This document shows positions 1 to 64,000 of a DNA stretch of 64,000 nucleotides, in pieces (position 1 is the first letter of the stretch; every line of letters begins with the position of its first letter). The notes below the pieces were generated by a model. That model saw nothing but the letters and a program-made list of their open reading frames with translations. It searched no databases and had not been told where the DNA came from. Origin of the DNA: a virus. Location: IMG/VR virus record IMGVR_UViG_3300023184_009074, positions 19,445 to 83,444 of that record, one strand, 5' to 3'. Made by a program: the position numbers and the translations under genes.

Positions 1-555
1 TATCTTTACTACTTCTGTGAAAAACATAATTTTTGGATGTTTGTTTCTTAATACTTGTGAAGTTTTAATTACAAGTTTTAAGAAATCTTCATTTGAATAT
101 CCTTCTTTGCAGTACTTAATATTTTTTTCATCTAGCTTTATAAGTTGATCGTAAATATATTGTGCTATTTTTTCTTCATCATTTACACCAGTTAAATGTT
201 TAAAATCATTTACCAATGGATAGCATTTAATTAAAATTGGTGCTGGATGACCTTTTAAATCTTTTATATCTCTTCTCAATAATATTTTAAAAGATCCAAG
301 TGGAGACACAGATATTATGAATTTACCATAGCTATCTCCAAATTCTAAAACACTTGATTTTGATCTATATGCTTTTTTATTATTTAATGGACCTAATCTT
401 TGTAAATTGTCTAAAAGAAGATTAGAGTCTAAGTGTTGAATTGGATTTTGATCGTAAACTTCATCTTCTTTTGAAGATTTTTTATTAATTTCTCCAAAAC
501 CATATAAATCTTCTGGAGTTTTATTAAACCATGTTTTAAATTCAAGAAGCATCAT
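1..555 (-). CDS. Partial protein with capsid-targeting-like N-terminus (C-terminus outside window)
   Basis: Reading the minus strand from ATG ATG at 555/552 gives 185 codons without a stop up to the window edge, so the gene is real but its end lies outside. The N-terminus reads M-M-L-L-E-F-K-T-W-F-N-K, the aromatic-x-x-W pattern that recurs on many proteins here, although the acidic residue after the pattern is absent. The rest is hydrophilic mixed alpha/beta with no family I recognise. Its start is only 14 bases from the start of the divergent gene at 570, and no Shine-Dalgarno is visible; an alternating TA tract lies between them. Confidence 0.75.
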   Translation of the reverse strand, partial: MMLLEFKTWFNKTPEDLYGFGEINKKSSKEDEVYDQNPIQHLDSNLLLDNLQRLGPLNNKKAYRSKSSVLEFGDSYGKFIISVSPLGSFKILLRRDIKDLKGHPAPILIKCYPLVNDFKHLTGVNDEEKIAQYIYDQLIKLDEKNIKYCKEGYSNEDFLKLVIKTSQVLRNKHPKIMFFTEVVKI

Positions 556-557
556 AA

Positions 558-565
558 TATATATA
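558..565 (+). promoter_or_regulatory. Candidate late promoter -10 box (TATATATA), possibly bidirectional
   Basis: TATATATA ends exactly 4 nt before the ATG at 570. The opposite strand reads CATATATA at the same 4-nt distance from the divergent start at 555. It is a weaker match to the NNTAAATA box seen at other gene starts in the window. There is no Shine-Dalgarno between box and ATG. Confidence 0.35.
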
Positions 566-569
566 TGAT

Positions 570-890
570 ATGAAACATTTAAATTTTTATAATTGGTTGT
601 TAAATGAAGAACAATCTTCTTATGTTCAAAAAATAAAACAATTGAAAAATGCTTTGGGGCTTTCTGTGCAAGTAGACGACACAGATGGAATAAAAGCTGC
701 TGGAAATATACCATTAAGCGATATAGAGAAAGATAACATTAAGAATTTTAAAACAAATTATATGTATACGGATGTTGGAGTGGAAGATAATAGAAAAGAA
801 AATCAAACTGCTATAGACGAATTATTAAGTTCCCCAAATAAAAATGTTAGTGATCTTGCAAATCTTATGGTTGGTTTAGAAAGCAAATAA
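570..890 (+). CDS. Small head-targeted-like protein (106 aa)
   Basis: The N-terminus M-K-H-L-N-F-Y-N-W-L-L-N-E matches the T4 internal-protein capsid targeting consensus and contains an L-N-E site of the kind cut by the T4 prohead protease gp21. The remaining 90 residues are hydrophilic and mostly helical-looking, without cysteines or a known domain. The gene starts within 14 nt of a divergent partner and ends just before a strong hairpin terminator. Role inferred: a packaged internal or prohead-core protein. No family recognised. Confidence 0.8.
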   Translation: MKHLNFYNWLLNEEQSSYVQKIKQLKNALGLSVQVDDTDGIKAAGNIPLSDIEKDNIKNFKTNYMYTDVGVEDNRKENQTAIDELLSSPNKNVSDLANLMVGLESK

Positions 891-900
891 CCTATAAATA

Positions 901-931: not shown

Positions 932-956
932 AAATATAAGTATAATATTTATAGTA

Positions 957-1603: not shown

Positions 1604-3844
1604 TTAAAATTTTAAATCATCTATAGAATCAAGTATTTTAATTTTATGCCCTTGTTTTTCTAATATACTTATTCTTTTTTCTGAATGTTTTTCTAAATAT
1701 TCATTATTTTCAAATAAGAAGTCATAATAATTTAAACCATTTTTATCTTTAGCTATTCTTAAACCTCTACCCATGCGTTGAATAATTAAATGGTCGGCTG
1801 AACCACCACAAGAATTTATTATGTTGTGTACGAAAACATTAATGCCTGTATTAAATATTTGTTGAGTAGCAATTGCCATTACATTACCTTGTGCTTTTTG
1901 AAGTTGATCTATAACTTCTTGTCTTACTTCGTCATTGTCTTCACCTTTAACCCAAAAAGCATTAGGCAATCTATATTTTAAAATATCACCATGCTGTATT
2001 CGATCAACAAGAATCAATGTTCTTCCTGTACATTTATTAGCAAGGTTCTCAACTATATCGTGAAAATAGTGATTTTCTACAATGCCATGTTGTACTGCAT
2101 CTTGATAAATTACATGTTCTAATTTTTCTCCTTTTATTTTAATAAAGAAGCAAGAGCTTTTAGATAGTCTTCCACGATCTTGAAGTTCTTTAGTAGTTAA
2201 TAAACCACTTTCTGTAGCAGTTGTTTTAAGGATTGGCCCAAAAAAACCTTTTACATAATACTTTTGTACTTTATCTGTTTCTCCATATTTAAATGGTGTC
2301 GCAGAAAGTCCTATTCGGATACCACAATTAATCATTTTCTTATAAACAGCTTTAGGAGTTTTGCTCATCATATCGTGAATTTCGTCAACAATAAGAACTT
2401 TAAACTTTGGTAATAACTTAGTTATTTTGCTACAAGATTGAACAGTAGCAACGGTAATTAGATTTGGTTCATTGTAGGTGTGATAAAGTCTTCCTACATT
2501 TTTAAAACCCCATTTTATTAATTCATTGTAGTTTTGAATAGCAAGTGATTTGCGATTTTGAACAACTAAAATAGGAGTATTAGGAGGAAGGCATTTTATA
2601 ATGCTTGTTAATATAAAAGTATTGTGAGTTACAACAAAATTATTTGTCAGGTATAATTGATCTGGATGATCAACACTAATACAAGCACAATCTTTTTCTT
2701 CTGTATATTCGATTTTATCAATATATCTTATTGGTTTAAAACAAGATAAATTTTTATAAGTTTTAATTTTCTCTATATCTGAAAATGGCATTATTTCTTT
2801 TGGTAGTATAATTCCTGTAAGAAAAATCATTCTATTTTTTCTTATTTTTAACTTTGTGTAAGTTATTCCACCTAGAGATTGTACTAGTTGTTTAATTTGG
2901 TCGTTTAATATTTTTGAATAAGAAACATAATAAATTGATCTTTTACCGAATAAAGATCTTCCATCTAATAATCCACATAACAATTTAATTCTATTATCAT
3001 AAGAGTTAAATAAATATTCATCTGGTATTATTGTTTCTTTGGCTAATTTATTTTTTTCGTAATTAATTACATTACTTATTATCAATCCAAAGAAATAAGG
3101 TTCTGTTTTTGTTTGTTTTTCTAAAAAATCAACTCTTTTTGGAGTTGGAACAAATACTTTATTTTTTTCATGCATTAAGTCTTTTGCTTCAACAATTTTT
3201 GTTTCTTTATTTATCTTTACCTTCCAGAGATGATTTTCGCAGCATTCAACAACATCGCCATTATTGAATGTTATTTGAACTATTTTCTTTTTTCCTTGTG
3301 GGAATATTCCTCGTAATTCTGCATATCCACCATTTGGAACACATACTTTATCTTTTAATTTTAAATCTTTTAATTTAACAAAACCATTTTGGGTAGCAAT
3401 CAAGGAATTATAAGGTTGTGCTTTACCAGAACTTGTAGGAGCAAATACAATTCCTCTTTGATGTTTAACAGCTTGGTTGGTAAAATCTACTTGATAATCT
3501 TCTAGTTTTATTTTATCAATTCCTTCTGGGAGCCATTGATTTAAGAAATTTTCATCAATTTCTTTAATTATAAAGTCAAACTTATCTCTAAGGTCATCAA
3601 TTTCATAATCTATATTTTTTAATTTTAATGCCATTAATATCTCTGGTAACAGCCCTGTCAGAAATTTACCAGAATCTTTATTAAAGAACGATGTGTATCC
3701 GTCCCAAATTTTTTGTTTGTAAAGTCTGTTGTGAAAATAGTTCCTTTCTCTGAACTTTAAACAGTTGCAAAGCATATCCTTGGTAGTTACATCAGATGTA
3801 ATTACTTGACTTATATCATTTTTAACCATTATTTTAACTGACAT
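1604..3844 (-). CDS. uvsW: UvsW-like SF2 DNA helicase, interrupted by an intein
   Basis: This resembles T4 UvsW, a superfamily 2 helicase that unwinds R-loops and branched DNA and helps shift T4 from origin- to recombination-dependent replication. Visible motifs are A-P-T-S-S-G-K (residues 135-141, Walker A, interrupted), D-E-I-H (about 487-490), G-L-S-A-T-P-F (motif III), and a C-terminal Q-R-M-G-R-G-L-R motif VI. The N-terminal region before Walker A corresponds to the UvsW substrate-binding domain. A 267-residue intein sits inside Walker A between Lys141 and the following Thr. Without it the protein is 479 aa, close to T4 UvsW (about 500). An AAGGAAAAATT ribosome site precedes the ATG. The gene diverges from the one at 3925. 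Confidence 0.92.
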   Translation of the reverse strand: MSVKIMVKNDISQVITSDVTTKDMLCNCLKFRERNYFHNRLYKQKIWDGYTSFFNKDSGKFLTGLLPEILMALKLKNIDYEIDDLRDKFDFIIKEIDENFLNQWLPEGIDKIKLEDYQVDFTNQAVKHQRGIVFAPTSSGKAQPYNSLIATQNGFVKLKDLKLKDKVCVPNGGYAELRGIFPQGKKKIVQITFNNGDVVECCENHLWKVKINKETKIVEAKDLMHEKNKVFVPTPKRVDFLEKQTKTEPYFFGLIISNVINYEKNKLAKETIIPDEYLFNSYDNRIKLLCGLLDGRSLFGKRSIYYVSYSKILNDQIKQLVQSLGGITYTKLKIRKNRMIFLTGIILPKEIMPFSDIEKIKTYKNLSCFKPIRYIDKIEYTEEKDCACISVDHPDQLYLTNNFVVTHNTFILTSIIKCLPPNTPILVVQNRKSLAIQNYNELIKWGFKNVGRLYHTYNEPNLITVATVQSCSKITKLLPKFKVLIVDEIHDMMSKTPKAVYKKMINCGIRIGLSATPFKYGETDKVQKYYVKGFFGPILKTTATESGLLTTKELQDRGRLSKSSCFFIKIKGEKLEHVIYQDAVQHGIVENHYFHDIVENLANKCTGRTLILVDRIQHGDILKYRLPNAFWVKGEDNDEVRQEVIDQLQKAQGNVMAIATQQIFNTGINVFVHNIINSCGGSADHLIIQRMGRGLRIAKDKNGLNYYDFLFENNEYLEKHSEKRISILEKQGHKIKILDSIDDLKF
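2621..3421 (-). other. Class 3-type intein in the UvsW Walker A motif (267 aa)
   Basis: Residues 142-408 of the helicase form a protein-splicing element. It begins A-Q-P-Y-N-S-L-I (no Cys or Ser nucleophile at position 1), has block B as G-D-V-V-E-C-C-E-N-H-L-W, block F as C-I-S-V-D-H-P-D-Q-L-Y-L, and ends V-V-T-H-N followed by extein Thr. Ala1 plus Trp in block B, Cys in block F and Thr two before the terminal Asn is the WCT signature of class 3 inteins, such as those in mycobacteriophage DnaB. The middle holds a short degenerate LAGLIDADG-like stretch (L-L-C-G-L-L-D-G-R-S and a Q-S-L-G-G segment) without two clear acidic catalytic helices, so homing activity is doubtful. Confidence 0.88.
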
Positions 3845-3924: not shown

Positions 3925-4377
3925 ATGAAGAAATATAATGAATGGTTAAAAGAAGAAGCCGAATTAGTGTTAACTACACCAATTCCAGTTGCACCAACTG
4001 CTGTTTCACAGACTGTTGCTCAAAAGGCAGTTTACCAAGCAGATAAAACAAAATTAAAGAATAAAGCTTGGAAAGCAAGTAAAGATGAAATATTAACATT
4101 TTGGAGAAGTGTTGCTGGTAATTCACCAATTCAATTAAAACCTATTCCTTACAATCACAAAGGAACTACAATTCAAGAAGATGGCATAAGAATTACTGGT
4201 ACTAAAGAATTTATCGCAAGTATTCTTTCTAGAATGAAGGAATTGATTAATTTTGAAAATGATAATAATAAATTAATAATTTCTTACAGGCAATCACCTA
4301 AAAGCTTAATACCTGGAAATAAAGAAAGTTATATGTTTTATTTGCAAATAAAAGAAAGAGGTCAAAAATCTAAGTAA
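3925..4377 (+). CDS. Head-targeted-like protein (150 aa)
   Basis: The N-terminus M-K-K-Y-N-E-W-L-K-E-E-A is one of the best matches to the T4 capsid targeting peptide, with an L-K-E protease site at residues 8-10. Next comes a Thr/Pro/Val/Ala-rich linker (about 15-35), then a basic, compact alpha/beta domain with no family I recognise. It is divergent from the helicase gene and convergent with the 62-aa gene that follows directly. Inferred to be an internal capsid protein. Confidence 0.8.
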   Translation: MKKYNEWLKEEAELVLTTPIPVAPTAVSQTVAQKAVYQADKTKLKNKAWKASKDEILTFWRSVAGNSPIQLKPIPYNHKGTTIQEDGIRITGTKEFIASILSRMKELINFENDNNKLIISYRQSPKSLIPGNKESYMFYLQIKERGQKSK

Positions 4378-4687: not shown

Positions 4688-5059
4688 ATGGAAATGAATT
4701 TCAAAAAATGGTTAAATGAAGTGGTTGCTCCATTATCTGCTTCTGGGATTAAAACTACAGCAACGACAGGAACAGTTCAAACTAATGCTATAACGCCTAA
4801 TTCATCTGGACAAAAAGGTATTGAAGATAAAAATTTATCAAAAAATATTACAGATTTAGCTGGCATTATGCAAAGAGATCTTCAAAAAACAGGTCAAAGC
4901 ATTAATGACATGACTAAAAAGGCTGTCAACAAAGATTTAAGTGGTATTGTTGGAATGTTTAGAGCATATGATGCAAAAAACAAAAATAAACTTCCTAAAG
5001 ATGATAAAGTTTTGGCTGCTGCAATTACAGGTTTAACTGGACAAGGAGAAACGAAATGA
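4688..5059 (+). CDS. Head-targeted-like protein (123 aa)
   Basis: The start M-E-M-N-F-K-K-W-L-N-E matches the targeting motif, with an L-N-E site at residues 9-11. A Thr/Ala/Ser-rich low-complexity segment follows (about 15-50), then an amphipathic helical C-terminal half. The 120 nt upstream are almost pure A/T and carry no gene; they probably hold the promoter. The stop overlaps the start of the next gene by 4 nt, so the two are translationally coupled. No family recognised. Confidence 0.8.
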   Translation: MEMNFKKWLNEVVAPLSASGIKTTATTGTVQTNAITPNSSGQKGIEDKNLSKNITDLAGIMQRDLQKTGQSINDMTKKAVNKDLSGIVGMFRAYDAKNKNKLPKDDKVLAAAITGLTGQGETK

Positions 5060-5406
5060 TTAATTTTCTAGAATATGTCAATATTCTTGCAGAAGCAGAC
5101 GCACCAGCGTTAGGAGCACCACCTGCTGGCGGTGCAATGCCTCCTCCTCCTGCTGGCGGTGGTGCTGGCGGTGCTGGCGGTGCTGGCGGTGCTGGCGGTG
5201 GTGCTGGTGATATGGGTGCACTTTCTGCTCCTTCTTCTGCACCTTCTCCTGTTCCTGCTGCAAGTGGTGGTGGTGGTGCTCCTCCTATGGATGCTATGGG
5301 TGGTGCAGCACCAGCTGGTGATGTCAGTGCTTTAAAAACTCCAAACATAAACCTAGAAGATGCTTATGATCATTTAGAAGATTTCTTTAATAAAAATAAA
5401 AAATAG
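5056..5406 (+). CDS. Gly/Ala/Pro-rich protein with targeting-like N-terminus (116 aa)
   Basis: M-I-N-F-L-E-Y-V-N-I-L-A-E gives an aromatic pair and an L-A-E site at residues 11-13. Residues about 15-95 are almost entirely Gly, Ala and Pro, a flexible disordered region coded by GC-rich repeats. The last 25 residues are an acidic amphipathic helix ending in a basic tail. Overlapping frames through the repeat on both strands are repeat artefacts. It overlaps the previous gene by 4 nt. Likely a structural or internal virion protein; function unknown. Confidence 0.8.
   Translation: MINFLEYVNILAEADAPALGAPPAGGAMPPPPAGGGAGGAGGAGGAGGGAGDMGALSAPSSAPSPVPAASGGGGAPPMDAMGGAAPAGDVSALKTPNINLEDAYDHLEDFFNKNKK
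5152..5210 (+). repeat. GC-rich 9-bp tandem repeat (GGTGCTGGC)
   Basis: About five near-perfect copies of GGTGCTGGC lie inside the Gly/Ala-rich gene and encode Gly-Ala-Gly. The base composition contrasts sharply with the AT-rich surroundings. Confidence 0.85.
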
Positions 5407-13610: not shown

Positions 13611-14348
13611 CTATATGCTTGATTCTGTAAGCCATTTTTTAAAAGAAAAATTCTCACTTGTGAATCTTTGCTGCCAATCCTGTGTCCTAGAAGGTTGTGG
13701 AATATACATGGATGCTTTTGTAGTTGGTGCAGTAACAGTCTTTAAAATTTGACCTTCTTCTAATTCTCCAAGAGTATAACTTCTAGATTGATTTGTTTTG
13801 TAAGAAAAAACTTCAATTTCTTGTTCTTTCAATTCGCTTTCATCTAGAATATCCATCACATCCATATCTTGTGCTATGTCATATGCTGCGTTGACAATTT
13901 TTCTAGCTGTTTCTTGATTAAATTCCCATACTTCAAAATTATTTTGTCTAATAATAATATATCCTAAATATTTACATCCATATTTTCTAGAATCTCCATG
14001 TAATGCTTGCATTGCTTCTGTTAATTTTGGATTAGAAACTAATTTATAATTAATATCTTTTATGCCATCGTAAAGACTATAAACATTATCTGGGTCATAC
14101 TCTTCTTGACGAATATCTCTCTCAACTTTCATTTTGTTTACTTCTAATTCTTGAATAAGTTCTTCTGATATTTTTGATTTTTCTGATTTTTCTATTAAGT
14201 CTTCTGCAATGTTAACTAGTTCTTCTGCATATGTTCCGCAAATTGCTTGCATAATATGTGCTTCATGACCCATATCACTGACATCACCATCAGCACCTAT
14301 TAAATAACTGCCATCATAAATATATTCGCCTCTTAAAAAGTCAATCAT
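13611..14348 (-). CDS. Paralogue of the ART protein's N-terminal region, ending in a targeting-like motif (245 aa)
   Basis: Residues 1-232 align with about residues 85-327 of the ADP-ribosyltransferase protein at 14917-16365. Shared landmarks are A-I-x-x-x-x-x-E-E-L-V-N-I-A-E, a K-L-T-E-A-M-Q-A-L segment, K-Y-G-C-K-x-L-G-x-I-I-I-R, E-V-W-E-x-N-Q and S-Y-K-T-N. The protein then stops at F-S-F-K-K-W-L-T-E-S-S-I, exactly the motif that precedes the ART domain in its paralogue. It looks like a copy lacking the enzyme domain, or a carrier for a C-terminal signal. AAGGAT precedes the ATG. Confidence 0.8.
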   Translation of the reverse strand: MIDFLRGEYIYDGSYLIGADGDVSDMGHEAHIMQAICGTYAEELVNIAEDLIEKSEKSKISEELIQELEVNKMKVERDIRQEEYDPDNVYSLYDGIKDINYKLVSNPKLTEAMQALHGDSRKYGCKYLGYIIIRQNNFEVWEFNQETARKIVNAAYDIAQDMDVMDILDESELKEQEIEVFSYKTNQSRSYTLGELEEGQILKTVTAPTTKASMYIPQPSRTQDWQQRFTSENFSFKKWLTESSI

Positions 14349-14350: not shown

Positions 14351-14920
14351 TTAATCCTTATTTAAAGTACTTATTACAATAGGTTGTATATCTAAAAGTT
14401 CAGTATCGTTTTTAAAAATTCTTGGAAATCTTTTTGCTATTACAGGATTGAAGTTAAATGGTTTTACTTTTACATGTCTATCTTCGTTTATTCCAAGTGC
14501 ATACAATTTAGCCATTGTTTTCCCAGCAGTAGGATCTAGATCATCTACAAGAATTGATTTTTTGCTTTTAGGTAATTTGTTTTCTTCTGGGTCAATAAAT
14601 TCATAATCTTCTATTCCAAAAATATTATTTTCATCTATTGGGATGCCAAGAGCTTTTATTACTTTTTTCTGAAATACACTTCCTCCAGCAGTAATAATAC
14701 AAACTTTGGCAATTGCTTTTAAATTATTTACAAAATCAATTGCATGTGGCCTTAGAAAACTAGCATAAGAATTGGTAATCAACACACCACTAAGAGCTTT
14801 AATTTCTTCTGGATTTTTAAAAGGTGGCACTTTATTAGTACTTACTAAAGTTTCATCTAAGTCTAAGAATATGATTGGATTTTCTTCTTTATTTTCAATC
14901 CATGTTTTAAAATTTATCAT
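14351..14920 (-). CDS. HAD-family phosphatase with capsid-targeting-like N-terminus
   Basis: After M-I-N-F-K-T-W-I-E-N comes a HAD hydrolase: motif I D-L-D-E-T (residues 20-24), motif II I-T-A-G-G (about 76-80), and motif IV V-D-D-L-D-P (about 125-130). D-x-D-x-T points to the phosphatase branch related to NLI-interacting/FCP1 factors, which act on phosphoprotein or small phosphoesters; the substrate is unknown. The N-terminal peptide fits the W-(L/I)-x core but has I-E-N then K-E-E, so the cleavage site is ambiguous. Its start overlaps the ART gene stop, so the two are coupled. Together they suggest an enzymatic effector pair. Confidence 0.85.
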   Translation of the reverse strand: MINFKTWIENKEENPIIFLDLDETLVSTNKVPPFKNPEEIKALSGVLITNSYASFLRPHAIDFVNNLKAIAKVCIITAGGSVFQKKVIKALGIPIDENNIFGIEDYEFIDPEENKLPKSKKSILVDDLDPTAGKTMAKLYALGINEDRHVKVKPFNFNPVIAKRFPRIFKNDTELLDIQPIVISTLNKD

Positions 14921-16365
14921 TTATGTATTTTCTTTGTGTCTGTAGAAAATGTTCCTTTGTTTTTAATTGATTTTAATTGTTTTGGATCAAAAACTATGGC
15001 ATTAAATGTTCCATCTTTATCTTTTAAAATAACGCCATCGTATCCATCTCTAAGCAATTCATCTATACCTTTTTTATCATATTCATCCCAGCCAGCTGGA
15101 TTTTGAATAGATGCATAGAGTTCAAAAACGGCACCGCTAACACCAGCACCAGTTTCATTTTTATCAGCAGCATTTTTGTCTGATGTTACCCAAATTATCC
15201 CGCCCATAGCAGATTTCTTAGGGTCAAATCCAAATTTATTTATTTTTTCTGCTGCTTCTTTGCTTGTTTGATGATAAACCACAATTGGATTGCCTTCTGA
15301 ATCTATTACTTTTGAATTTTTAAACCAATTTTTAAAATCAGGATTGTCAATTATGGAGTTTTCTAACCATATTTTAAAAGAAAAACTTTCGCTTGTGTAT
15401 CGCAATTGGTGTCTTTGTGTAGTTGAAAGTCCTTCTGGAGTAGAAGCCTGTGGAATGAAATGATTTGATTTACCTTGACTTATTGTAGGTGTTACATTTA
15501 ATTTTTTATCTCTTAATTGCTCAATAGTATATTCACTGCCTTTATTGGTTTTATATGAAGTAATTCCTATAGTTTGCTCATCTTCTCTGCTTCTGTCTTC
15601 TCTGTTTTCTTCCATAATTTTTTCTGCTGCATCTACAATCTTATTTGCAGTATCTTGATTGAGTTCCCACACTTCAAAGAAAGGCCCTCTAATAATAATA
15701 AATCCTAAAGATTTACATCCATATTTTCTGACATCTCCATGTGATAATGCTTGCATGGCTTCTGTTAGTTTTTGATCAGAAACTAATTGCGGATTAATAT
15801 CTTTAATAGCATTATAAAGGGTGCCAATATTAGTAATTTCTTTTTCTCCAATATTATCATCTTCAATATAATCTGGAAGATTTTTAATTTTATATTTATA
15901 TCTCTTTAATTCCTCTAATTTTTCTTCTAATTCTTCATCTATTTCTTCTGGTTTTTTTGATTCAATTTGTTTAATTAATTTTTCTGCAATATTTACTAAT
16001 TCTTCTCTATGATTTAAAAAAATTGCTGCTTGTATCGTTTCTTCATGAGTTTTTACATCTGCTTCTGTTAATTTTCCGTGATCATAAATCCATTCACCTT
16101 TTAAAAGATCTACTTCTTCCTTGTCTTCAAATGGTGGCTCAATTATTTCAAGTTGTTCTTTCCACCAATTTAATTCTGCTTCAACATTATTTACTTTAGT
16201 TTGTTCTAAAAGAGATTTGATCCATATCATAGATTGTTCAATTTTAAATTTTTCTATTTCTTCCCATCCCAACCCATCTAAATTATTTATTATGTTGTGA
16301 AATGCTATAATAAAATCTTTTGGTATTTCTTTATTTATAAATTTGATAACTGCGTCTTTGTCCAT
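14917..16365 (-). CDS. Probable ADP-ribosyltransferase (ART-PolyVal type) with internal targeting/cleavage motif
   Basis: The protein has 482 aa. Residues 1-85 are helical, 85-327 are shared with the paralogue at 13611-14348, F-S-F-K-I-W-L-E-N-S (328-337) matches the capsid targeting peptide, and 344-482 form an ART-like domain. That domain begins F-K-N-W-F-x-x-S-K-V-I-D-x-x-G-N-P-I-V-V-Y-H-Q-T, the usual opening of polyvalent ART domains, and continues with G-I-I-W-V-T-S-D, a G-Y-D-G-V-I segment and a V-F-D-P-K-Q-L-K-S-I-K-N ending. It would transfer ADP-ribose from NAD to host targets; T4 Alt is a packaged ART matured by the head protease. The catalytic Glu is not certain by eye. An in-frame TAA separates this gene from an upstream targeting peptide. 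Confidence 0.82.
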   Translation of the reverse strand: MDKDAVIKFINKEIPKDFIIAFHNIINNLDGLGWEEIEKFKIEQSMIWIKSLLEQTKVNNVEAELNWWKEQLEIIEPPFEDKEEVDLLKGEWIYDHGKLTEADVKTHEETIQAAIFLNHREELVNIAEKLIKQIESKKPEEIDEELEEKLEELKRYKYKIKNLPDYIEDDNIGEKEITNIGTLYNAIKDINPQLVSDQKLTEAMQALSHGDVRKYGCKSLGFIIIRGPFFEVWELNQDTANKIVDAAEKIMEENREDRSREDEQTIGITSYKTNKGSEYTIEQLRDKKLNVTPTISQGKSNHFIPQASTPEGLSTTQRHQLRYTSESFSFKIWLENSIIDNPDFKNWFKNSKVIDSEGNPIVVYHQTSKEAAEKINKFGFDPKKSAMGGIIWVTSDKNAADKNETGAGVSGAVFELYASIQNPAGWDEYDKKGIDELLRDGYDGVILKDKDGTFNAIVFDPKQLKSIKNKGTFSTDTKKIHK

Positions 16366-16374: not shown

Positions 16375-16425
16375 TTATATTTTTCTGGAATAGTTTCTAT
16401 TTTCTAACCATATTTTAAAGTTCAT
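16375..16425 (-). CDS. 16-residue free targeting peptide (micro-ORF), in frame with the ART gene
   Basis: ATG at 16425 encodes M-N-F-K-I-W-L-E-N-R-N-Y-S-R-K-I and stops at TAA (16375-16377). The motif is nearly identical to the internal one in the ART protein (F-K-I-W-L-E-N). The frame continues past the stop through three codons to the ATG at 16365. So this is either an inactivated N-terminus of the ART gene, a read-through leader, or a stand-alone peptide. An AATATATA box lies 4 nt before ATG. Confidence 0.5.
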   Translation of the reverse strand: MNFKIWLENRNYSRKI

Positions 16426-23211: not shown

Positions 23212-23214
23212 ATT

Positions 23215-23598
23215 ATGGATAATTTTAAAGAATTTATATTAAATGAAAGCAAACAATTTTTTGCCACTCAATGTGGCGACATTTTAAATGCTATTCAAAA
23301 TCTTGAAGAAGAAGCAGACTATATTGGGACAAGAAATCTTGTAAGATATAGTCAGAATATTGCAAATAACATTAGAAATTTAATTCATTCTCATTGGAGT
23401 GATGATTTAAGTGATAATTTAAAACAATTGCAAACTATAGGAGTTGCAATATTAAAATCAATAGAAGAATCATCTGAATTGCTAGAAACAATTAAATCTG
23501 CAAGGGCATCTTTAGAAGAACTGGTTAAAAAACTTGGCGTACCAATTAACAATGTTGGAATACCAGAAAAAGAATCCAAACCTCAAGAAGCAGAATAG
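23215..23598 (+). CDS. Head-targeted-like helical protein (127 aa)
   Basis: The start M-D-N-F-K-E-F-I-L-N-E is an excellent match to the T4 targeting peptide, with an L-N-E site at residues 9-11. The rest is predicted amphipathic helix throughout, acidic, with a Pro/Glu-rich tail. It starts 4 nt after pyrG's stop and ends 4 nt before the amidotransferase gene, so it is cotranscribed with metabolic genes. Function unknown; packaging inferred. Confidence 0.8.
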   Translation: MDNFKEFILNESKQFFATQCGDILNAIQNLEEEADYIGTRNLVRYSQNIANNIRNLIHSHWSDDLSDNLKQLQTIGVAILKSIEESSELLETIKSARASLEELVKKLGVPINNVGIPEKESKPQEAE

Positions 23599-38847: not shown

Positions 38848-38855
38848 AATAAATA
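38848..38855 (+). promoter_or_regulatory. Late-type -10 box AATAAATA, 4 nt before ATG
   Basis: AATAAATA then AATT then ATG at 38860. No Shine-Dalgarno. It lies in the 43-nt gap between divergent genes. Confidence 0.55.
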
Positions 38856-38859
38856 AATT

Positions 38860-43455: not shown

Positions 43456-43505
43456 ATTGTCACATAATATATATTTTAATCTTATATTTTTTGGAAATTA
43501 AATTT

Positions 43506-50516: not shown

Positions 50517-50753
50517 ATGTTATCATTTGAAGAATGGGTTTATGAAACTTATCCATTGTTGACTGAAAAAACTAAGAGGGCTGGAATTGCTCATTGGGCA
50601 TATCCTCAAGGATATGCAAGAGCACATTATCCTGCTAGCTATTTTACACCTGTTGCAGCTGATGCAATTCAGAAATTAGGGCCAACTGCTTCTGATAGCT
50701 CAATTGATGTTAAAAAGTTTAATTACAGTCAATTTGGTGAAACCGAAGAATAA
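50517..50753 (+). CDS. Head-targeted-like small protein (78 aa)
   Basis: M-L-S-F-E-E-W-V-Y-E-T fits F-x-x-W-(V)-x-E. A region rich in Tyr, Ala and Pro follows (H-W-A-Y-P-Q-G-Y-A-R-A-H-Y-P-A-S-Y). It has AAGAAGGAAGG before ATG and a hairpin terminator after it, so it is a monocistronic unit. The upstream 119 nt contain no gene. Confidence 0.78.
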   Translation: MLSFEEWVYETYPLLTEKTKRAGIAHWAYPQGYARAHYPASYFTPVAADAIQKLGPTASDSSIDVKKFNYSQFGETEE

Positions 50754-51895: not shown

Positions 51896-52294
51896 TTTGT
51901 ATTTATTTATTTCGTGAATTGTAAAGATATAGCTTTTAAATAGATTAATCTTTCTTAGCAATCTTTCGTGAAGATTATATTGATTAATTTCATCAAAATT
52001 AATCCATTTATAGTCTAAATGCTCTTCGCTTAAAGTACAATCAAAAGATTTTTCTATCATAACAACATAAGTGACGAAATAATTTTTTTTATGGAAATCT
52101 GGAAATTTGCCAATCTCTATCCCAGTTGGCAAAGTTCCTATTTCTTCTCTTGTCTCTCTGCATGCAGTTTCCCAACTGGTTTCATTTTTTTCTTGTTTTC
52201 CACCAGGAATACTCCATATTTTATTTTTTGAATTTTTTAGTAATATCAAAAAATTCCATCCATCAGTATAAAAAATACCAGATGATTTTTTCAA
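51851..52294 (-). CDS. Nudix hydrolase
   Basis: The Nudix box is clear at about residues 31-53: G-G-K-Q-E-K-N-E-T-S-W-E-T-A-C-R-E-T-R-E then E-I-G-T, matching G-x5-E-x7-R-E-x-x-E-E-x-G. W-S-I-P precedes it as in MutT-type enzymes. These hydrolyse nucleoside diphosphates linked to another group, e.g. nucleotide sugars, mutagenic NTPs or mRNA caps. Substrate unknown. It overlaps the upstream gene by 4 nt. Confidence 0.92.
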   Translation of the reverse strand: MKKSSGIFYTDGWNFLILLKNSKNKIWSIPGGKQEKNETSWETACRETREEIGTLPTGIEIGKFPDFHKKNYFVTYVVMIEKSFDCTLSEEHLDYKWINFDEINQYNLHERLLRKINLFKSYIFTIHEINKYKLINNNLNAANRVFR

Positions 52295-52875
52295 TTTTTT
52301 GGACCTCTTTTTAAATTAATACCTTTTAGTTTTTCTTTGTGTTTATCAGGTTTGTGTTTAATATCGTCCATTACATTTTTTAATTTATAAGTCATGCTTG
52401 ATGCATTTAAATCACCATCAATTTTTTCTGTATTTACTACAGATACTGTTTTCTTACTTTTATTGTAAAACCCTTTACTTAAAACAAACATATCAAGCTT
52501 ATGGTTGTAACTTATTAATGAGCACCATCCTCCATCATCCCAATTTCTCGCAGTAACAATTATTCTATAAGGCTCTTCGTCAAATATTAATTTAACATGA
52601 TATCCTTCTTTTTTAAGTGCTGCACTTACATAACCTAAAGTTATTTTTGCAAACCCACTTAAAACATCTTCCTTTTTAGTTCTATAGTTTATTTCTACAG
52701 AATATCTTGTGTGCTCTACAGATTCTAATAATATATTATTTTTTGTATTAAAAGTGTTAGATGTATAATTTTTACATATTTCTATAAAATCAAGCAATTC
52801 TTCTTGTTTTATGTCTTTGACATTTTCAAAAAGATTTTGTAATTTTTCTTTTTTGTATTCTTTGAAATTTTTCAT
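52291..52875 (-). CDS. Hypothetical protein with targeting-like N-terminus (194 aa)
   Basis: M-K-N-F-K-E-Y-K-K-E-K has the F-x-x-Y pattern but lacks a hydrophobic residue at the next position, so it is a weak match. The body includes a beta-rich domain with R-Y-S-V-E-I-N-Y and N-W-D-D-G-G-W-C, and a basic C-terminus. AATAAATA lies 7 nt before ATG. Coupled to the Nudix gene. Confidence 0.72.
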   Translation of the reverse strand: MKNFKEYKKEKLQNLFENVKDIKQEELLDFIEICKNYTSNTFNTKNNILLESVEHTRYSVEINYRTKKEDVLSGFAKITLGYVSAALKKEGYHVKLIFDEEPYRIIVTARNWDDGGWCSLISYNHKLDMFVLSKGFYNKSKKTVSVVNTEKIDGDLNASSMTYKLKNVMDDIKHKPDKHKEKLKGINLKRGPKN

Positions 52876-56405: not shown

Positions 56406-59400
56406 ATGCTAAAGAAATTTTATATTGAAGATTATTTGTCTAATAAAATAAAACAAGAAGATTTTGTTCTGAATGAAGCTGTTCAAGGTGATATTACTAA
56501 ACATACATTGTTGCAATTATTTTCTATAGATAATATTAAATATTTAAATCAATTTTTGCCAAAAGATCACAAATCTGCTGAAAAAAAAAGAATGCAAATT
56601 CTTTATGATGCTATGCAAGATAGAGATAGTTTTTTAAAAAAAGATTTTGAAGAAAATTTTAAAGAGCAAAAAGAAAAATTAAAAGTATTGTTTGAAAGAA
56701 AAAAAGAAGTTAAAATTTATTTCACTAAAGATTTCGAAGAAACAATTATTAATCATTGTTCTAGAAAACAAGCATGGGAAAAAACACTAGAAGAAGGACA
56801 AAAAGAATGGTGGGACTCTCCTGCCACTGATGGTGGTAAAAAATATCAAGCAAGTGATTTTGTAGTAGATATAAAAGATAGAAAAGCTACTAGAAGATAT
56901 AAAGTAAATCTTCATTTGAAAGAAATGGTTCAAAGAATAGAAGGAACTTCAGGTAGTGACATGGGATCTGACTTAAGTTTTCCTAGAGAAGATCCATTTT
57001 CATGGTCACACAAAAAGAATGAATTTTTAAATAAAAAAAGATTTAACGGCATGCTTATGCCAGATGACAATACTATCGAAGAAAACTACGACAAATGGCT
57101 TGCTGCTTCAGCTTCTGGATTACTTTCTTCTAAATCATTAAAGCATGGAGATGAGATTGATATAGCAGGAGAAGAAAAAGAAGAAATACCTGGTTTGGAA
57201 AGTAAAAATAAAATTTCTTTTGAAAAGCATAGTTCTTTAAAAAACAAAAACATGCTTGATGTAGAAAGAGTTTTAATTCGCAAGGAAATTAGAGCAATTT
57301 TTGAAAATCATAATTTATCAAAATCTATAATTGATTCTTACGGTAAACCCAAGAAAGCATCAAAAGAACCAAGTAGAAATACTGGAGAACTTTCTTCAGT
57401 ATATCCAAAAGAACCAGATAGATATAAAGATAATTTAGTTATATTTATTGAAAAATTATTAAATTTAGGAAATGATATTCATGTTGGATCTTCAGGATCT
57501 AAAAGACTTTTGACTTTTCTAAATAAAATTTCTTATGATCCAAAAAACCCCGAGCAATTTTTCAAAGATGTACTTACTTTTCCATCTGACGAAGAACAGC
57601 TTTTAACTTCGCTTGAAAGGGCTTCTACGGAAGAAGGAGAGAAATCTAAAAGCCTTTCTTTTTACGAGGACTTAAAGAATGCAGTTGATAAACATGGTGC
57701 AATTGAAATATTCGATAAAGAATCTTATAAAAAAAGTTTTATAAATTTGATTACTATGAGACAGTTTATAAAATGGATTAAAGATGGAAATTATAAAGTT
57801 AAAAATCCAATAACTGGGATGGATGAATTAGCCGAAATAAAAGGCAATGAAATTATAATCCCAGATTTACATGTACCTTCGTTTAAAAAAACCATTGTGT
57901 ATTATAATCCATATGAAGCTGTATATGATCCACGAACAAAAGGAAAAGTAAAAAAAGAAAAAGAAATTAAGGAATCTGTTCAAATGCCAGTTTTATTACC
58001 AGGTTCAGTACTTGTTGAAAAAGGAAGATATGAAGAAGATGATACATCTTCTTCTTTTGGTGATATTCCAAAAACAAAAACTGGAGAAGAAATATGGAAT
58101 CCACATGAGGGAAAATATGAACAAAGATATTATGATTTAAAAAAACAATATGAAGACAAAAAAGCAGCTGGATTGTTAAATATTAATGATTTAATTGGTA
58201 TTCAAGGAACAGAAGATAAAATAATTGGTGGTTTAAGTCCAAATCGTATGATTGAATCATTTAAATTTTTATGTCCTGATCCTGAAGGTAAAGATAATAC
58301 ATTTTGGAATAGAATTAATTCTATTATAGCATTCAATGGGTCGCTTGCATTGTGTCATTTTAAATCAGCATCTAGTACAAGTGAAATTCCAACTGTTGAA
58401 TTCAAAGAATTATCCCCATCTGTAAGTGGTTATAAATCCATCGTTGAGACTCCAAGTGAGTTTATTGTTATCAAGAGAATAGCAGAGGTTATAGCAAATA
58501 AACTGCACATGAGTAAATATAGAGATAGTCATGATATTACTCCAGAAAGATTGAGTGCAATGCAACATTTTCCAGAATTATATCATGTAATATTTGCAAA
58601 AATATTTTCTAATCTTGGCGATAAATCTATGTTAGAACCTGAATTATTAGATAAATTTATTGGCGAAAAGGTTGCAAATTATATTGATAAGGATATTGCT
58701 TCTAGAAGTGGAAGATCAAGTAGAATTGGAACTGTTGCTAGTGAAATAGGAAAAGAAGAAGAAAAATCTTCTGAGATTTCACTTCCTAGTGGATTAGAAA
58801 AAGTGGTTTCTAAAGAAATTGCCAGTCGTGATATTCAATCATATATATTTGCTTTACACAGAAACTATTTAACATTATGTAAGACTGGAAAAAGTGCTTG
58901 TGGTATTTGCACTGATCCTTTAGACACAAGATGTGGAATTGTAATGGATGAACATCTTATTAGAGAAAAATTAGAACAATCAATTAAAATTGCTGATCAA
59001 GTTGATAAAAATAGAAACATAGATTTAGGTAACGCACCTGTCGCTTCTAAACCACCAGAACCAGCACCAGTGCCAGCAGCAGCAGCAGCACCAGCAGCAG
59101 CAGCAGCAGCACCAGCAGCAGCAGCACCAGCACCAGCAGCACCAGCATCTAAAAAGCCAACTCAAAAAAGTCTTTTCGATGATCCAAGCCAACCTGAAGA
59201 AAAAATTAAAATAAAAGATCCAGATCATAATAAAATGGAGTTTGTAGTTAAATCTAAAATGAAAATTATTGAATATATCGAGCCTGTAATTAATATTAAA
59301 TTTGCAAATAATGAACTTGATAACCAACAAGAAGAAGAAGAAAAAAGAAAAGAAATTTTTAATAATTTTATGAGTAAAAAAAGAGAGGCACTTGCAAGCA

Positions 59401-59672
59401 CAAGTTTGTCTAATGATGAAAAAAATATTATTGTAAAAGAAATGGAAAAAGGAAGAGATGATCAATATATTACATTATCTAAAGAATACAAAACAATAAC
59501 AGATCAGCTAGAAGTTAAAAAAAGAGAAATAATCATTAGTTTGACTAATTATTTTAGGCATGTAGATGAAACTCAATCTTTAAAATTAAGTTTATTAGAT
59601 GCCTTAGAAATATATGGAATACATATTGAAGACCACATCCCAGCAGATATTTTAAGGAAGTACGGTTTATAA
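56406..59672 (+). CDS. Very large unknown protein with Ala/Pro linker (1088 aa)
   Basis: The start M-L-K-K-F-Y-I-E-D-Y-L-S-N leads to V-L-N-E-A near residue 21-25, so a targeting/processing signal is possible but weak. Long charged helical regions follow. A small Cys group lies near residue 835-850 (A-C-G-I-C...R-C-G). A linker at about 880-920 is nearly all Ala and Pro. The C-terminus is helical and charged. Size and position beside neck and head-type genes suggest a virion or internal protein; no family recognised. AAGG lies about 5-8 nt before ATG. Confidence 0.75.
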   Translation: MLKKFYIEDYLSNKIKQEDFVLNEAVQGDITKHTLLQLFSIDNIKYLNQFLPKDHKSAEKKRMQILYDAMQDRDSFLKKDFEENFKEQKEKLKVLFERKKEVKIYFTKDFEETIINHCSRKQAWEKTLEEGQKEWWDSPATDGGKKYQASDFVVDIKDRKATRRYKVNLHLKEMVQRIEGTSGSDMGSDLSFPREDPFSWSHKKNEFLNKKRFNGMLMPDDNTIEENYDKWLAASASGLLSSKSLKHGDEIDIAGEEKEEIPGLESKNKISFEKHSSLKNKNMLDVERVLIRKEIRAIFENHNLSKSIIDSYGKPKKASKEPSRNTGELSSVYPKEPDRYKDNLVIFIEKLLNLGNDIHVGSSGSKRLLTFLNKISYDPKNPEQFFKDVLTFPSDEEQLLTSLERASTEEGEKSKSLSFYEDLKNAVDKHGAIEIFDKESYKKSFINLITMRQFIKWIKDGNYKVKNPITGMDELAEIKGNEIIIPDLHVPSFKKTIVYYNPYEAVYDPRTKGKVKKEKEIKESVQMPVLLPGSVLVEKGRYEEDDTSSSFGDIPKTKTGEEIWNPHEGKYEQRYYDLKKQYEDKKAAGLLNINDLIGIQGTEDKIIGGLSPNRMIESFKFLCPDPEGKDNTFWNRINSIIAFNGSLALCHFKSASSTSEIPTVEFKELSPSVSGYKSIVETPSEFIVIKRIAEVIANKLHMSKYRDSHDITPERLSAMQHFPELYHVIFAKIFSNLGDKSMLEPELLDKFIGEKVANYIDKDIASRSGRSSRIGTVASEIGKEEEKSSEISLPSGLEKVVSKEIASRDIQSYIFALHRNYLTLCKTGKSACGICTDPLDTRCGIVMDEHLIREKLEQSIKIADQVDKNRNIDLGNAPVASKPPEPAPVPAAAAAPAAAAAAPAAAAPAPAAPASKKPTQKSLFDDPSQPEEKIKIKDPDHNKMEFVVKSKMKIIEYIEPVINIKFANNELDNQQEEEEKRKEIFNNFMSKKREALASTSLSNDEKNIIVKEMEKGRDDQYITLSKEYKTITDQLEVKKREIIISLTNYFRHVDETQSLKLSLLDALEIYGIHIEDHIPADILRKYGL

Positions 59673-60524: not shown

Positions 60525-60528
60525 AAAT

Positions 60529-60997: not shown

Positions 60998-61005
60998 GGA
61001 GAAAT

Positions 61006-63438
61006 ATGTTTATATTAGAATTTAAACAATGGATAGAAGAAGAGTTATTAATTGAAGCACTTTTATCTAAAGATCAATCAAAGCTTTTTTCGATTATATT
61101 AAATCACATAAAACTTAATCCATTAGTAAACATTGTTGGAGTTGGTAAGAAAAATGTAAATCAATTAGTAAGTTCTATAACAGGTTCACTATTAGACAAA
61201 TTTTCTAAAACCAGTATTAATGATGATGTTTTTTTGAAAGCTTTTTTAGCTGTAGTATTAAGAAGAGCATTTCAATCAAAGGATTTCAGTTCTATAATAG
61301 ATGATAATTTTTTCACTTTATCTAAACAAGATAAAGAATTACAGATAGATGCAGCTATAGGATACATTTCAATGTTCTTAGAAGATTTAGATGAAAAATC
61401 ATATATTTTTGGCGAAATATTACATAATAATAATGGAGATTTATCAAAATCAATAAATGATTTTTTAACAAATCCTAGAGGAATACATAGCCATTTGGGA
61501 TTGGAAAAAAAGCCATTGTTTAAAAAAGCATTAGAAAAACCATCGCAAGAAAAACTTATCATGAGAAGTTTAGATCAAGATTCTAATACTGATTCTAAGC
61601 AGTATATACCTACAGAAGATGAATTGCTTTCAAAAAGAGATGCTTCTGATAAGCCAAAAAAAGAATTTGATGATATTTCTAGAATAGAACAACAAGAATT
61701 TCAAAAGAAACTACTTAGTGTTACTCCTGCTAAGGCTAAAGAAAATTTAAATATTAATCTAAAAAGATCTTTGGATGAAAATAAAGATGCTATTATTAAT
61801 CCTGATAATTTAGACTTTTTTGCCAAAAATCCAAAAAGTAAAAAGCCAGAAATTAACGATACTAATAATTATTTAAAAATAAAAGCCTTATATGATATTA
61901 GTACAAAATTTGAAAAAGGCATTTCTGAATTAGAAGGCCATTCTGGGATACCTTCTTATGAAGGAAGATCATATTCTACATTACCAACTAGAAAAGATGT
62001 TCTTGATTCTGATTCTTATTTTTCAAAATTAAAAGATGATCAATGGATAAACTTAATTAGCAAATACATATTATCGCATTATAATGCAGGTAAAGATCCA
62101 AAAATTGCAATAAGCTTTTTTACTAATTTATATGGTGCTCCAAGTGACATGTGGAAAAAAGTTATAGATACAGCAGTTGAAAAATCTGTGAATGTAAAAA
62201 AAGATTTATTAGAAAAAGATTTTCCTCTTACTCAAGATGATTTTGAATTTGAAGATGAAAAAGCTAAAAAAGATAAAGAAAGATTTAAAAGAACTTGGAT
62301 GAATATGTCTGGGCGTTTAGCTGTAAGTGCAAAATCTGACTTACATGAGTTCTTACCAGATTCTATAAATCCTTATGATGATAATGGAAATCCAAAAGAA
62401 GAAGGAAAGTTTGATAAAGATGGATACGACAGAGTAAGTAAAATATTAGATGATTTTTATTATAATAAATTTTATGGAAATACTTCTGTTAAATCTGGCA
62501 GTAAAATTGATGACAAAGAAAAAGAAGTAGCAAACAAAAGTCAAAATTTCCAAACACTAGTAAAATTATATAGAATTTTATTGGGGTTATCTGCAATTGA
62601 AGTAGCACAAGTAGATGCAAAAACAATACCAATATGTAAACAACTGCAAATATGGTTGGATTTTTCATTTAGAGATCCAGGTTCTAATGTTTCTGTTGAA
62701 GAATTAAATAAAATTAAAGACATTAAGAAGATTAAAGAATTATTAGATAGCAGTGAGAATATAATTAAAAATATATTCAAAAAACCTTTGAATGCTATTT
62801 GTAATAATGATAAATTTGATGACTTTGAAATTGAAGATGATGATTGGAAATCAAGCCATGAAGAATATTTAGCTGCATTAAACATTAAAGATTTACCAGC
62901 AGGGTATTCTATAGGAAGTCGATTTGGATTTAAAGATTTTTTGAAATTAAAAAATTCAAAAAATAAAGAAGATATTGAAAAATATAAATATTTGATTAGC
63001 AAGGGAAAAGAATCTTTAAAAAATGAGCCATCCTTGGCTAAGAAGGCAGAAGAAAAAGAATATCTAGATATTGCTGAAAAAATTGTTGCTCTTAGGCAAG
63101 GAGTTGGCGATCCATATGCTATCGCAGAAAAGCTTAAAACAGGTTTATCTGTAGGATCTCCTTTATGGCACGATTTACAAATTGTTAAGAGTAAATTCAC
63201 GCCTCCTGATGTGTATACGCCTAGATCTAAAGAAGAAGAAGAGTTTGGCATTACTAGATCTTCTGAAATTCCACAACTACCAGCATGGAAACCAAAAACC
63301 CCTGAAGTTTCTTCGCCTGATCCAAAAGAAAAAGAACAGATGATAGCAGCAGCTAAGCAAAGAGCACAAGCAGCAGCGGACCAAAGAAGAGCTTATTACG
63401 CAAGTAATTTGAATAAAGACACAGGGAGGGTAAAATGA
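61006..63438 (+). CDS. Large head-targeted-like protein (810 aa)
   Basis: AAGGAGA lies 4 nt before ATG at 61006; an earlier in-frame ATG at 60988 overlaps the previous gene. The start M-F-I-L-E-F-K-Q-W-I-E-E-E-L-L-I-E-A contains the motif with I-E-E and L-I-E sites. The rest is charged and helical, with Lys/Glu-rich linkers; the end is Ala/Gln/Arg-rich. No enzyme motif is visible. Packaging of an 810-aa protein would be notable. It overlaps the next gene by 4 nt. Confidence 0.8.
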   Translation: MFILEFKQWIEEELLIEALLSKDQSKLFSIILNHIKLNPLVNIVGVGKKNVNQLVSSITGSLLDKFSKTSINDDVFLKAFLAVVLRRAFQSKDFSSIIDDNFFTLSKQDKELQIDAAIGYISMFLEDLDEKSYIFGEILHNNNGDLSKSINDFLTNPRGIHSHLGLEKKPLFKKALEKPSQEKLIMRSLDQDSNTDSKQYIPTEDELLSKRDASDKPKKEFDDISRIEQQEFQKKLLSVTPAKAKENLNINLKRSLDENKDAIINPDNLDFFAKNPKSKKPEINDTNNYLKIKALYDISTKFEKGISELEGHSGIPSYEGRSYSTLPTRKDVLDSDSYFSKLKDDQWINLISKYILSHYNAGKDPKIAISFFTNLYGAPSDMWKKVIDTAVEKSVNVKKDLLEKDFPLTQDDFEFEDEKAKKDKERFKRTWMNMSGRLAVSAKSDLHEFLPDSINPYDDNGNPKEEGKFDKDGYDRVSKILDDFYYNKFYGNTSVKSGSKIDDKEKEVANKSQNFQTLVKLYRILLGLSAIEVAQVDAKTIPICKQLQIWLDFSFRDPGSNVSVEELNKIKDIKKIKELLDSSENIIKNIFKKPLNAICNNDKFDDFEIEDDDWKSSHEEYLAALNIKDLPAGYSIGSRFGFKDFLKLKNSKNKEDIEKYKYLISKGKESLKNEPSLAKKAEEKEYLDIAEKIVALRQGVGDPYAIAEKLKTGLSVGSPLWHDLQIVKSKFTPPDVYTPRSKEEEEFGITRSSEIPQLPAWKPKTPEVSSPDPKEKEQMIAAAKQRAQAAADQRRAYYASNLNKDTGRVK

Positions 63439-63968
63439 TATTAAATCAAAATGGATTACCTTATAGTGTCAATGGAGAATATAAGCTTTTTAATGATAAG
63501 CTACCAGAAAGAAATTTGTTTAACGAATGGGATGCAGAATCTATAAGAATTGGCGGATCTCCAATTCAATATTATGAAGTATTTATTGATACAAATAACA
63601 TTGATCCTCTTTACTTAGAATCAAGAGGAAAGTTATTTAGTCAGACTCCAATAGATCTTTATTGTTTTTACGAGCCTATACCAAGTCAAAATTTTCAAAC
63701 TTCTTTTGGACTAGATAGTCCTGATGAAATGATATTTGAATTTAATTATTCAGATGTTTTAACAAGACTTGGATATGCTCCAAAAATTGGTTCTAGATTT
63801 CACACGCCTTTTCTTAACGAAAATTGGGTTATTGTTGAGAGAAAATTAGGTGAGTTTAAAATGTATCAGTCTACTAGATTACAATGTATATGTAGTAGAT
63901 TCCAAGAAAGTCTTACTGATGGTTCTAATGGAACAAAACAAGAAAATGTTGATTTTAAAATTACATAA
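63435..63968 (+). CDS. gp14-like neck/head-completion protein (177 aa)
   Basis: F-Y-E-P-I-P-S-Q-N-F followed by F-E-F-N-Y-S-D-V, G-Y-A-P-K-I-G-S-R-F-H-T-P, N-W-V-I-V-E-R-K and F-K-M-Y-Q-S-T-R-L-Q follows the gp14 order: a G-D/G-S-x-I/F-P entry, an E-I-x-x-V strand, then a Y-Q segment. It is shorter than T4 gp14 (256). Likely part of the neck with the gp13-like protein, but the match is only pattern-level. GGGAGGGTAAA precedes ATG. Confidence 0.55.
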   Translation: MILNQNGLPYSVNGEYKLFNDKLPERNLFNEWDAESIRIGGSPIQYYEVFIDTNNIDPLYLESRGKLFSQTPIDLYCFYEPIPSQNFQTSFGLDSPDEMIFEFNYSDVLTRLGYAPKIGSRFHTPFLNENWVIVERKLGEFKMYQSTRLQCICSRFQESLTDGSNGTKQENVDFKIT

Positions 63969-63977
63969 GGAGAAAAT

Positions 63978-64000
63978 ATGAAAAGTTTTTATGATTTCTA
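63978..64000 (+). CDS. Partial gene with targeting-like start (M-K-S-F-Y-D-F...)
   Basis: AAGGAGAAAAT precedes ATG at 63978; only seven codons are visible before the window ends. M-K-S-F-Y-D-F fits the M-x-x-F-x-x-(F/W) opening. Confidence 0.6.

Follow-up and report, generated by a model that had tools for sequence, protein, structure and literature searches.

Genes and tags in the 64-kb window

We analysed a window of 64,000 nucleotides from IMG/VR record IMGVR_UViG_3300023184_009074, covering positions 19445–83444 of the 83,444-base record, i.e. the final 64 kb of a fragment of about 83 kb. The window has a G+C content of 28%, and its tail and neck genes are of T4 type (sheath, tail tube, sheath stabiliser, hub and a gp13-like head-tail adaptor); its source is an uncultured T4-like phage, to which named phages are only distantly similar in a comparison of the sheath. 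Among its 108 genes, called with a simple gene caller of our own, are about fifteen, otherwise unrelated, that begin with a common short peptide, here termed the tag, which resembles the capsid targeting sequence of the T4 internal proteins. For comparison, four related contigs were taken whole (G001, G007, G008 and G009, of 190, 245, 245 and 223 kb), and the set further comprised four contigs of 72–94 kb and the unannotated 595-kb phage LR756511, the capsid protein of which is 77% identical to that of G001. The window phage and these relatives are referred to below as the clade.

A first-pass annotation of the window had listed unrelated proteins said to share an N-terminal motif, and the motif or a close variant was indeed present at the starts 570, 1535(−), 3925, 4688, 5056, 14920(−), 23215, 38860, 39370, 48888(−), 50517 and 61006. 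Bit scores quoted for single genes come from a position matrix trained on the relatives, and a slash within a tagged sequence marks the proposed cut. At the left end lie two orphans, one of 106 amino acids (aa) at 570–890 (+) that begins MKHLNFYNWLLNE/EQSS with an LNE site (13.9 bits), and one of 192 aa at 957–1535 (−) that begins MKSFNQFIKNRDKSF (14.6 bits) and has no good LxE site close to the tag. The 150-aa protein at 3925–4377 (+) begins MKKYNEWLKE/EAELV (12.8 bits), and its homologues in G007 and G009 are tagged, with a variable stretch between tag and domain. It is followed by a 123-aa orphan at 4688–5059 (+; MEMNFKKWLNE/VVAPL; 12.7 bits), which ranks first in this phage with a matrix built from a single protein family (see below), and by a 116-aa Gly/Pro/Ala-rich protein adjoining a gp47-like gene at 5056–5406 (+; MINFLEYVNILAE/ADAPAL; 6.5 bits), with tagged Pro/Gly-rich counterparts in G009 (MNTFKKFLETKLHEAAPPAAPPPP) and the 595-kb phage (MRSFRQYITEVLLNEQPPPGG). 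A 189-aa NIF/HAD-type phosphatase at 14351–14920 (−; NIF E 1.8e-9, above the cut-off) begins MINFKTWIENKEENP (19.4 bits) and has no LxE site close to the tag; HAD-type proteins are likewise tagged in G001 and the 595-kb phage.

The 127-aa protein at 23215–23598 (+), which adjoins CTP synthase, begins MDNFKEFILNE/SKQF (17.5 bits); its family is tagged in 9/9 genomes, and the first Phe and Glu10 belong to only eight invariant columns. Two further orphans are those of 73 aa at 38860–39081 (+; MINFKEWLKLQE/YAF; 19.7 bits), with a homologue at 61% identity that retains the tag, and of 124 aa at 39370–39744 (+; MKKFNSWLNE/SKFEE; 12.7 bits), with a homologue at 30% identity that retains MKKFNEW. Lower scores of 5.4 bits each were obtained for a highly acidic 299-aa protein at 47989–48888 (−; MLNYNNWKKLNE/NLG), the N-terminus of which is alike in G009 (MLSYKQWKTLNES), G011 (MLTFKEWRDLNES) and the 595-kb phage, and for a 78-aa protein at 50517–50753 (+; MLSFEEWVYETYPLLTE/KTKRAG), whose family in nine genomes has F-x-x-W tags and, in most members, a Glu ahead of [NK]-x-K-R-[AT]-G. 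Two further tagged proteins are one of 810 aa at 61006–63438 (+; MFILEFKQWIEE/ELLIE/ALL; 16.4 bits) and one of 1,088 aa adjoining the gp13-like gene at 56406–59672 (+; MLKKFYIEDYLSNKIKQEDFVLNE/AVQG). The latter start is additional to those first listed, as is one at record position 18742(−), which lies a little beyond the window (MKSFKKFLEQRD). Counterparts of the 1,088-aa protein occur at the same position and size in relatives, several with a tag-like start and an LxE (LNE in G007, LDE in G008, LSE in G010 and in the 595-kb phage).

Tagged homologues in relatives support two starts that had been proposed as weaker, 555(−) and 52875(−). The first belongs to a 271-aa protein of which the window holds the start only, the gene running on to the left (1–552, −; MLLEFKTWFNKTPED; 3.0 bits alone), and tagged homologues were found in G007 (MTVKGFKTWLEFKD), G010 and the 595-kb phage (MKSFASWFNEYAD). 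The second is that of a 194-aa protein at 52291–52875 (−; 7.7 bits), which begins MKNFKEYKKE and has its cut site, ILLE/SVEHTRYSVE, 49 residues further on; a predicted structure (predicted local distance difference test score 84) gave no convincing match to PDB entries or viral models (best E 0.03 and 0.003) that would assign a function to this family. At 63978–64000 (+), the start itself stands, reading MKSFYDF behind a Shine-Dalgarno sequence (AAGGAG), and of the protein only seven codons precede the end of the contig. Two matches to the pattern appear to be false positives, namely 33783(+) (MIKDFIEILERQ) and a primase-like family (G001 47192 and homologues).

Enrichment of the tag across the clade

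Taken literally, the pattern of the first-pass annotation matches 6 of the 108 called starts, where shuffling predicts 0.05, and 0/336 internal methionines. A looser core pattern is found at 13 gene starts, where 1.0–1.5 are expected from shuffled N-termini, internal methionines or internal windows, and the matrix, trained on the relatives without this phage, places 13/108 genes at or above 6 bits against 0.5–0.7 expected, ten of the 13 exceeding 12 bits. Every one of eight related contigs, with G+C contents of 37–58%, is enriched as well (5–23 genes at or above 6 bits; 0.2–1.3 expected), and the 595-kb phage has 61 such genes against 3.2 expected. No enrichment was seen over 200 kb of a T4-like huge phage that is more distantly related (2 against 1.2 expected) or in a 50-kb cyanophage stretch (0/24 genes). 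The N-terminal peptide is a genuine feature, occurs far more often than chance would give and extends across the clade.

Composition and descent were considered as sources of the likeness, since a G+C content of 28% makes Phe, Lys, Ile and Asn common and since the ADP-ribosyltransferase gene described below and its neighbour are paralogues. About one match is expected from shuffles and internal methionines against the 13 seen, the same enrichment recurs in relatives of 37–58% G+C, and the mature parts of the tagged proteins are unrelated. Chance in AT-rich DNA is refuted by the shuffles together with the cross-genome test, and we give chance or the duplication of a few genes a negligible probability.

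Likeness to the T4 capsid targeting sequence

Among 168 clade tags, the positions left free by the search pattern are biased as well: T, S or N ahead of the first aromatic residue (3–3.5 fold), K after it (4 fold), E, D or Q ahead of the second aromatic (3 fold) and E behind the aliphatic residue (3.5 fold). The clade consensus reads M-x-[TSN]-F-K-[EDQ]-[WF]-L-E, and the T4 internal proteins begin MKTFKEF (IPI) and MKTYQEFIAE (IPII and IPIII). As in T4, the peptide is short, lies at the extreme N-terminus of otherwise unrelated proteins and has aromatic residues at about positions 4 and 7. Amber-suppression work on IPIII assigned targeting mainly to residues 4 and 7 and processing to residues 8 and 10 (PMC9026906), and the positions conserved in the clade coincide with these.

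When the clade matrix was run over the 252 genes of T4, gp61.1, IPIII, IPI and IPII occupied ranks 1–4. Because the training set had been picked by a pattern that recalls T4, we repeated the ranking with a matrix from one family picked by mature-domain homology, and here gp61.1 came first and IPI second. The T4 ranking and the conservation of the motif in homologues bear out the likeness to the T4 peptide that the first-pass annotation had drawn, and on sequence grounds the clade peptide is a T4-type capsid targeting sequence. The parallel extends to the [LI]xE site, the unrelated mature parts and the fast turnover of cargo and, in relatives, to the gp21-type protease. Unlike T4, the clade often has Trp at the second aromatic position and usually a shifted cut site, and it has 5–61 tagged genes per contig or genome, full enzymes among them, where T4 has three or four; no detectable homology was found between the mature clade proteins and the T4 internal ones.

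The highest tag score in T4 belongs to gp61.1 (NC_000866 18966–19130 (−), locus L162), which begins MKTFKEFIKED and exceeds the three known internal proteins. From its N-terminus we predict that gp61.1 is an internal protein of T4 not named as such until now; the prediction is open to a check in this standard laboratory phage.

A gp21-type cleavage signal behind the tag

T4 gp21 cleaves after (I/L)xE. The sequence [LI]xE[ASG] occurs within residues 8–30 in 20% of tagged and 5.6% of untagged proteins (p 5e-9). There was no rise behind tags for forms of the site with D, Q or K, nor for [AVF]xE[ASG], a comparison in which Ser at P3 was not treated separately; likewise LNE is enriched 8.8 times behind the tag and LND, LNK and LNQ are not. 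In the window, L[NTAQSLK]E, a residue set picked post hoc, lies in residues 8–30 of 11/16 tagged and 6/91 other proteins (p 1e-7), and the broader [LI]xE in 14/16 against 29/91 (p 4e-5). The 52291 family provides the clearest case. Of 49 distinct members 47 are tagged, and 45 have [LIM]xE at most 14 residues ahead of a conserved strand, RYSVEV (control rate in the same proteins, 6%); the residue after this site is A, S or G in 37 members. The linker between tag and site ranges from nothing up to about 50 residues.

The pattern of the first-pass annotation implies a cut at residue 10, and this did not hold: the signal sits one or two residues beyond residue 10 or after a linker, and sites usually lie 1 to about 50 residues later. 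Since the IPI site of T4 is also shifted and apart from the tag (ITE at residue 19), a cut at residue 10 does not define the family. The proposal that the removal site is of gp21 type fared better, with a Glu-specific signal behind the tag and the protease present in relatives. A PF03420-type protein in G001, G008, G009 and the 595-kb phage has both the H block (GELxHP) and the S block (SSRG) found in T4 gp21; the expected protease is in this way encoded in four relatives and is absent from the present, incomplete contig. Capsid precursors have [MIVL]NE at one position in 42/42 distinct sequences, 36 of which also have FLNEA near the N-terminus. The statistics establish the site; cutting there is inferred.

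The head module of several relatives includes, between the portal and gp21 protease genes, a small tagged gene that is read from the opposite strand (L017:3877-4230, L112:1097-1417 and L310:3644-3958, all −). The head module of the window's own lineage was not found among 80 gp21 loci, the lowest G+C content of which was 34.5%, none being close to 28%.

Short amphipathic helices at N-termini could have many binding partners, and some tags are without a cut site, so we considered whether the tag docks onto another target such as tail or baseplate, replisome or membrane, the LxE sites being incidental. The enrichment of Glu, and not of Asp, Gln or Lys, behind the tag, the conserved site of the 52291 family, the match to the T4 internal proteins and the lack of tags on core tail and replication proteins all argue against this, and we think it improbable.

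The cleavage preference also separates the clade from SPN3US/phiKZ-type giant phages. Their protease prefers small residues (A/S-x-E), unlike the clade, in which [AVF]xE is not enriched and capsid and protease are T4-type. A likeness to these phages is seen in the proposed packaging, trimming and ejection: reports on them describe a large head-packaged protein set, which a prohead protease trims and which is ejected along with the DNA (PMC7411985, PMC10052503).

Tagged cargo and untagged core genes

The motif might have been equally common on cytosolic enzymes of the phage, and we find that core enzymes are without it. Homologues of the T4 enzymes for replication, recombination and packaging gave 1 match in 37, a miscalled internal UvsW start, and 0/42 homologues of core head and tail proteins are tagged. 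In the window the cargo comprises the NIF/HAD phosphatase (14351–14920) and the 810-aa and 1,088-aa proteins, and is mostly orphans; the majority of tagged proteins have no known domain. Above Pfam cut-offs, the cargo of relatives includes enzymes of Acb1/2'-5' RNA ligase type (two genomes), S-adenosylmethionine (SAM) lyase, NADAR, RNA-repair-type HAD, poly(A)/CCA polymerase, HD, Nudix, nucleotidyltransferase, and PfkB plus cytidylyltransferase. Several of these families are known or plausible counters to the cyclic oligonucleotide-based antiphage signalling system (CBASS), restriction or RNA-cleaving defences. Since the cargo domain starts behind the tag in the cases checked, and since two relatives have the Acb1-type enzyme with a tag and two others have it without one, the tag behaves, as judged from these sequences, as an add-on. 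An anti-defence function fits what is known of T4, as IPI blocks a restriction enzyme and IPIII permits infection of strain ECOR17 (PMC9391042).

A role confined to the scaffold and head assembly, in which the tag brings proteins into the prohead and most serve or are consumed there as core or assembly factors rather than being delivered as active effectors, has precedents in T4, where gp22, gp67 and gp68 are core proteins of such a kind and IPIII influences head assembly (PMC9026906). It would suit the many tagged window proteins that are small, orphan or of low complexity, and the tagged gene within the head module of relatives. Complete enzymes without a plausible assembly role (Acb1-type, SAM lyase, NADAR, Nudix) among the relatives' cargo, and the rapid turnover of that cargo between genomes, speak against such a role, which we regard as unlikely.

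On G001:C1:169016-177625 (−; L022), five tagged or tag-like paralogues of about 570 aa stand in tandem, an apparent expansion of one cargo family; the one scanned had no Pfam match. Upstream of tagged genes the T4 late promoter TATAAATA was not found. The element [CG]TA[AT]ATA lies upstream of 29% of tagged and 6% of other genes in the relatives, mostly 10–14 nucleotides before the ATG, with window examples at 23203–23214 (AATATATAGATT) and 38848–38859 (AATAAATAAATT). It is near-palindromic and its reverse-strand count is therefore somewhat raised too. Standing at the expected Shine-Dalgarno place, these elements are possibly late promoters giving leaderless mRNAs.

The ADP-ribosyltransferase locus

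An ART-PolyVal ADP-ribosyltransferase of 482 aa is encoded at 14917–16365 (−; PF18760, E 2.2e-14). Its annotated frame, starting at 16365(−), has no N-terminal tag, and the tagged protein that had been placed at 16425(−) proved to be a 16-codon frame (16375–16425, −; MNFKIWLENRNYSRKI), upstream of and in frame with the ADP-ribosyltransferase start and closed by a TAA. This stop may reflect decay, read-through or an assembly error. The internal tag-like copy reported for the enzyme was recovered as FSFKIWLENS from residue 329, immediately ahead of the catalytic domain. A paralogue of its N-terminal part (13611–14348, −; 45–46% identity) has, as also reported, a copy at the C-terminus, ending SFKKWLTE/SSI right after the peptide equivalent to that of the enzyme.

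The locus recalls T4 Alt, an injected and gp21-processed ADP-ribosyltransferase, in the association of such an enzyme with the tag system; unlike Alt, the window protein matches only ART-PolyVal, its N-terminal tag is cut off by a stop and its tag-like peptide is internal. ART-PolyVal is a domain of phage polyvalent proteins, which with the P1 Dar proteins resemble the proposed clade cargo in being of a head-associated, anti-restriction or host-modifying kind. Polyvalent proteins are long multidomain chains, unlike the many separate proteins of the clade with one tag each.

Proposed fate of the tagged proteins

With a probability of roughly 86%, we propose that the clade peptide is a T4-type capsid targeting tag by which proteins dock onto the prohead, are cut in the manner of gp21 and become virion cargo that enters the host with the DNA. 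By analogy with T4, the two aromatic residues would dock a freshly synthesised protein onto the prohead's scaffold core, and a gp21-type protease would cut after Leu/Ile/Met-x-Glu, at the peptide end or behind a variable linker, releasing the mature protein inside the head, where it would be retained. The freed proteins would remain beside the packaged DNA and pass into the host together with it; both their presence in virions and their injection are argued from T4. The tag has spread to many genes per clade genome, and whole enzymes delivered in this way (in relatives, those of anti-CBASS, SAM-lyase, ADP-ribose-related and RNA-repair types) would act before phage gene expression.

Several observations weigh against this proposal. 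The tagged proteins of all clade members are known from gene sequences, and neither a major capsid protein nor a prohead protease was found on the incomplete 83,444-base record (no PF07068 or PF03420 match). About 40% of clade tags, including those of the HAD phosphatase and of the 957–1535 orphan, have no [LIM]xE in residues 8–30, and some tagged proteins may for this reason be uncut. A cut strictly at residue 10, as in IPII and IPIII, was rejected, as the pairing of Leu and Glu there is no better than independent. Of the T4 rankings, the first is not fully independent, its training set having come from a T4-inspired search pattern, and the family-only matrix drops IPII and IPIII below the top ranks (IPIII 18th).

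For the clade as a whole, with genomes of up to 595 kb, we further consider it moderately probable that the targeting tag forms a modular delivery system, in which genes of any kind gain or lose the tag and tens of virion proteins in changing sets, among them anti-CBASS nucleases, SAM lyase, NADAR and enzymes of RNA repair and tRNA-end repair, counter host defences in the first minutes. The mechanism is already known from T4, and T4-like phages have been proposed to vary their head cargo by capsid targeting (PMC9026906). No description of its use by this clade was found in the literature searched, which included few subscription papers; new here are the scale, the enzyme cargo, the separation of tag and cut site and the reach into a 595-kb phage. 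In phages that have not been grown, the tag would be a readable label that picks out, from the many orphan genes, those whose products probably travel in the virion. Counter-defence enzymes that elsewhere are known to be expressed (Acb1, SAM lyase) are predicted to arrive ready-made. Such delivery would help to account for the survival of incoming DNA through its first minutes in the face of restriction, CBASS and RNA-cleaving defences. The clade tags may also serve as natural tags for loading proteins into phage heads.

Other features

Three features apart from the tag were noted. In the UvsW-type helicase at 1604–3844 (−) the Walker A motif is interrupted by an intein-like insert starting with Ala (SSGK/AQPYNSL ... 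VVTHN/TF), and the portal gene of G001 has an intein-like insert too. A subtilisin-like protease (43491–44591, +; PHROG 3677, E 2.6e-83) is located among structural genes of the window. On G001:C1:72006-79517 (L017), short proteins that are very rich in Gly, His and Cys and look paralogous are encoded one after another (e.g. MSWTYSSGCGEYGNGHGEGC...).

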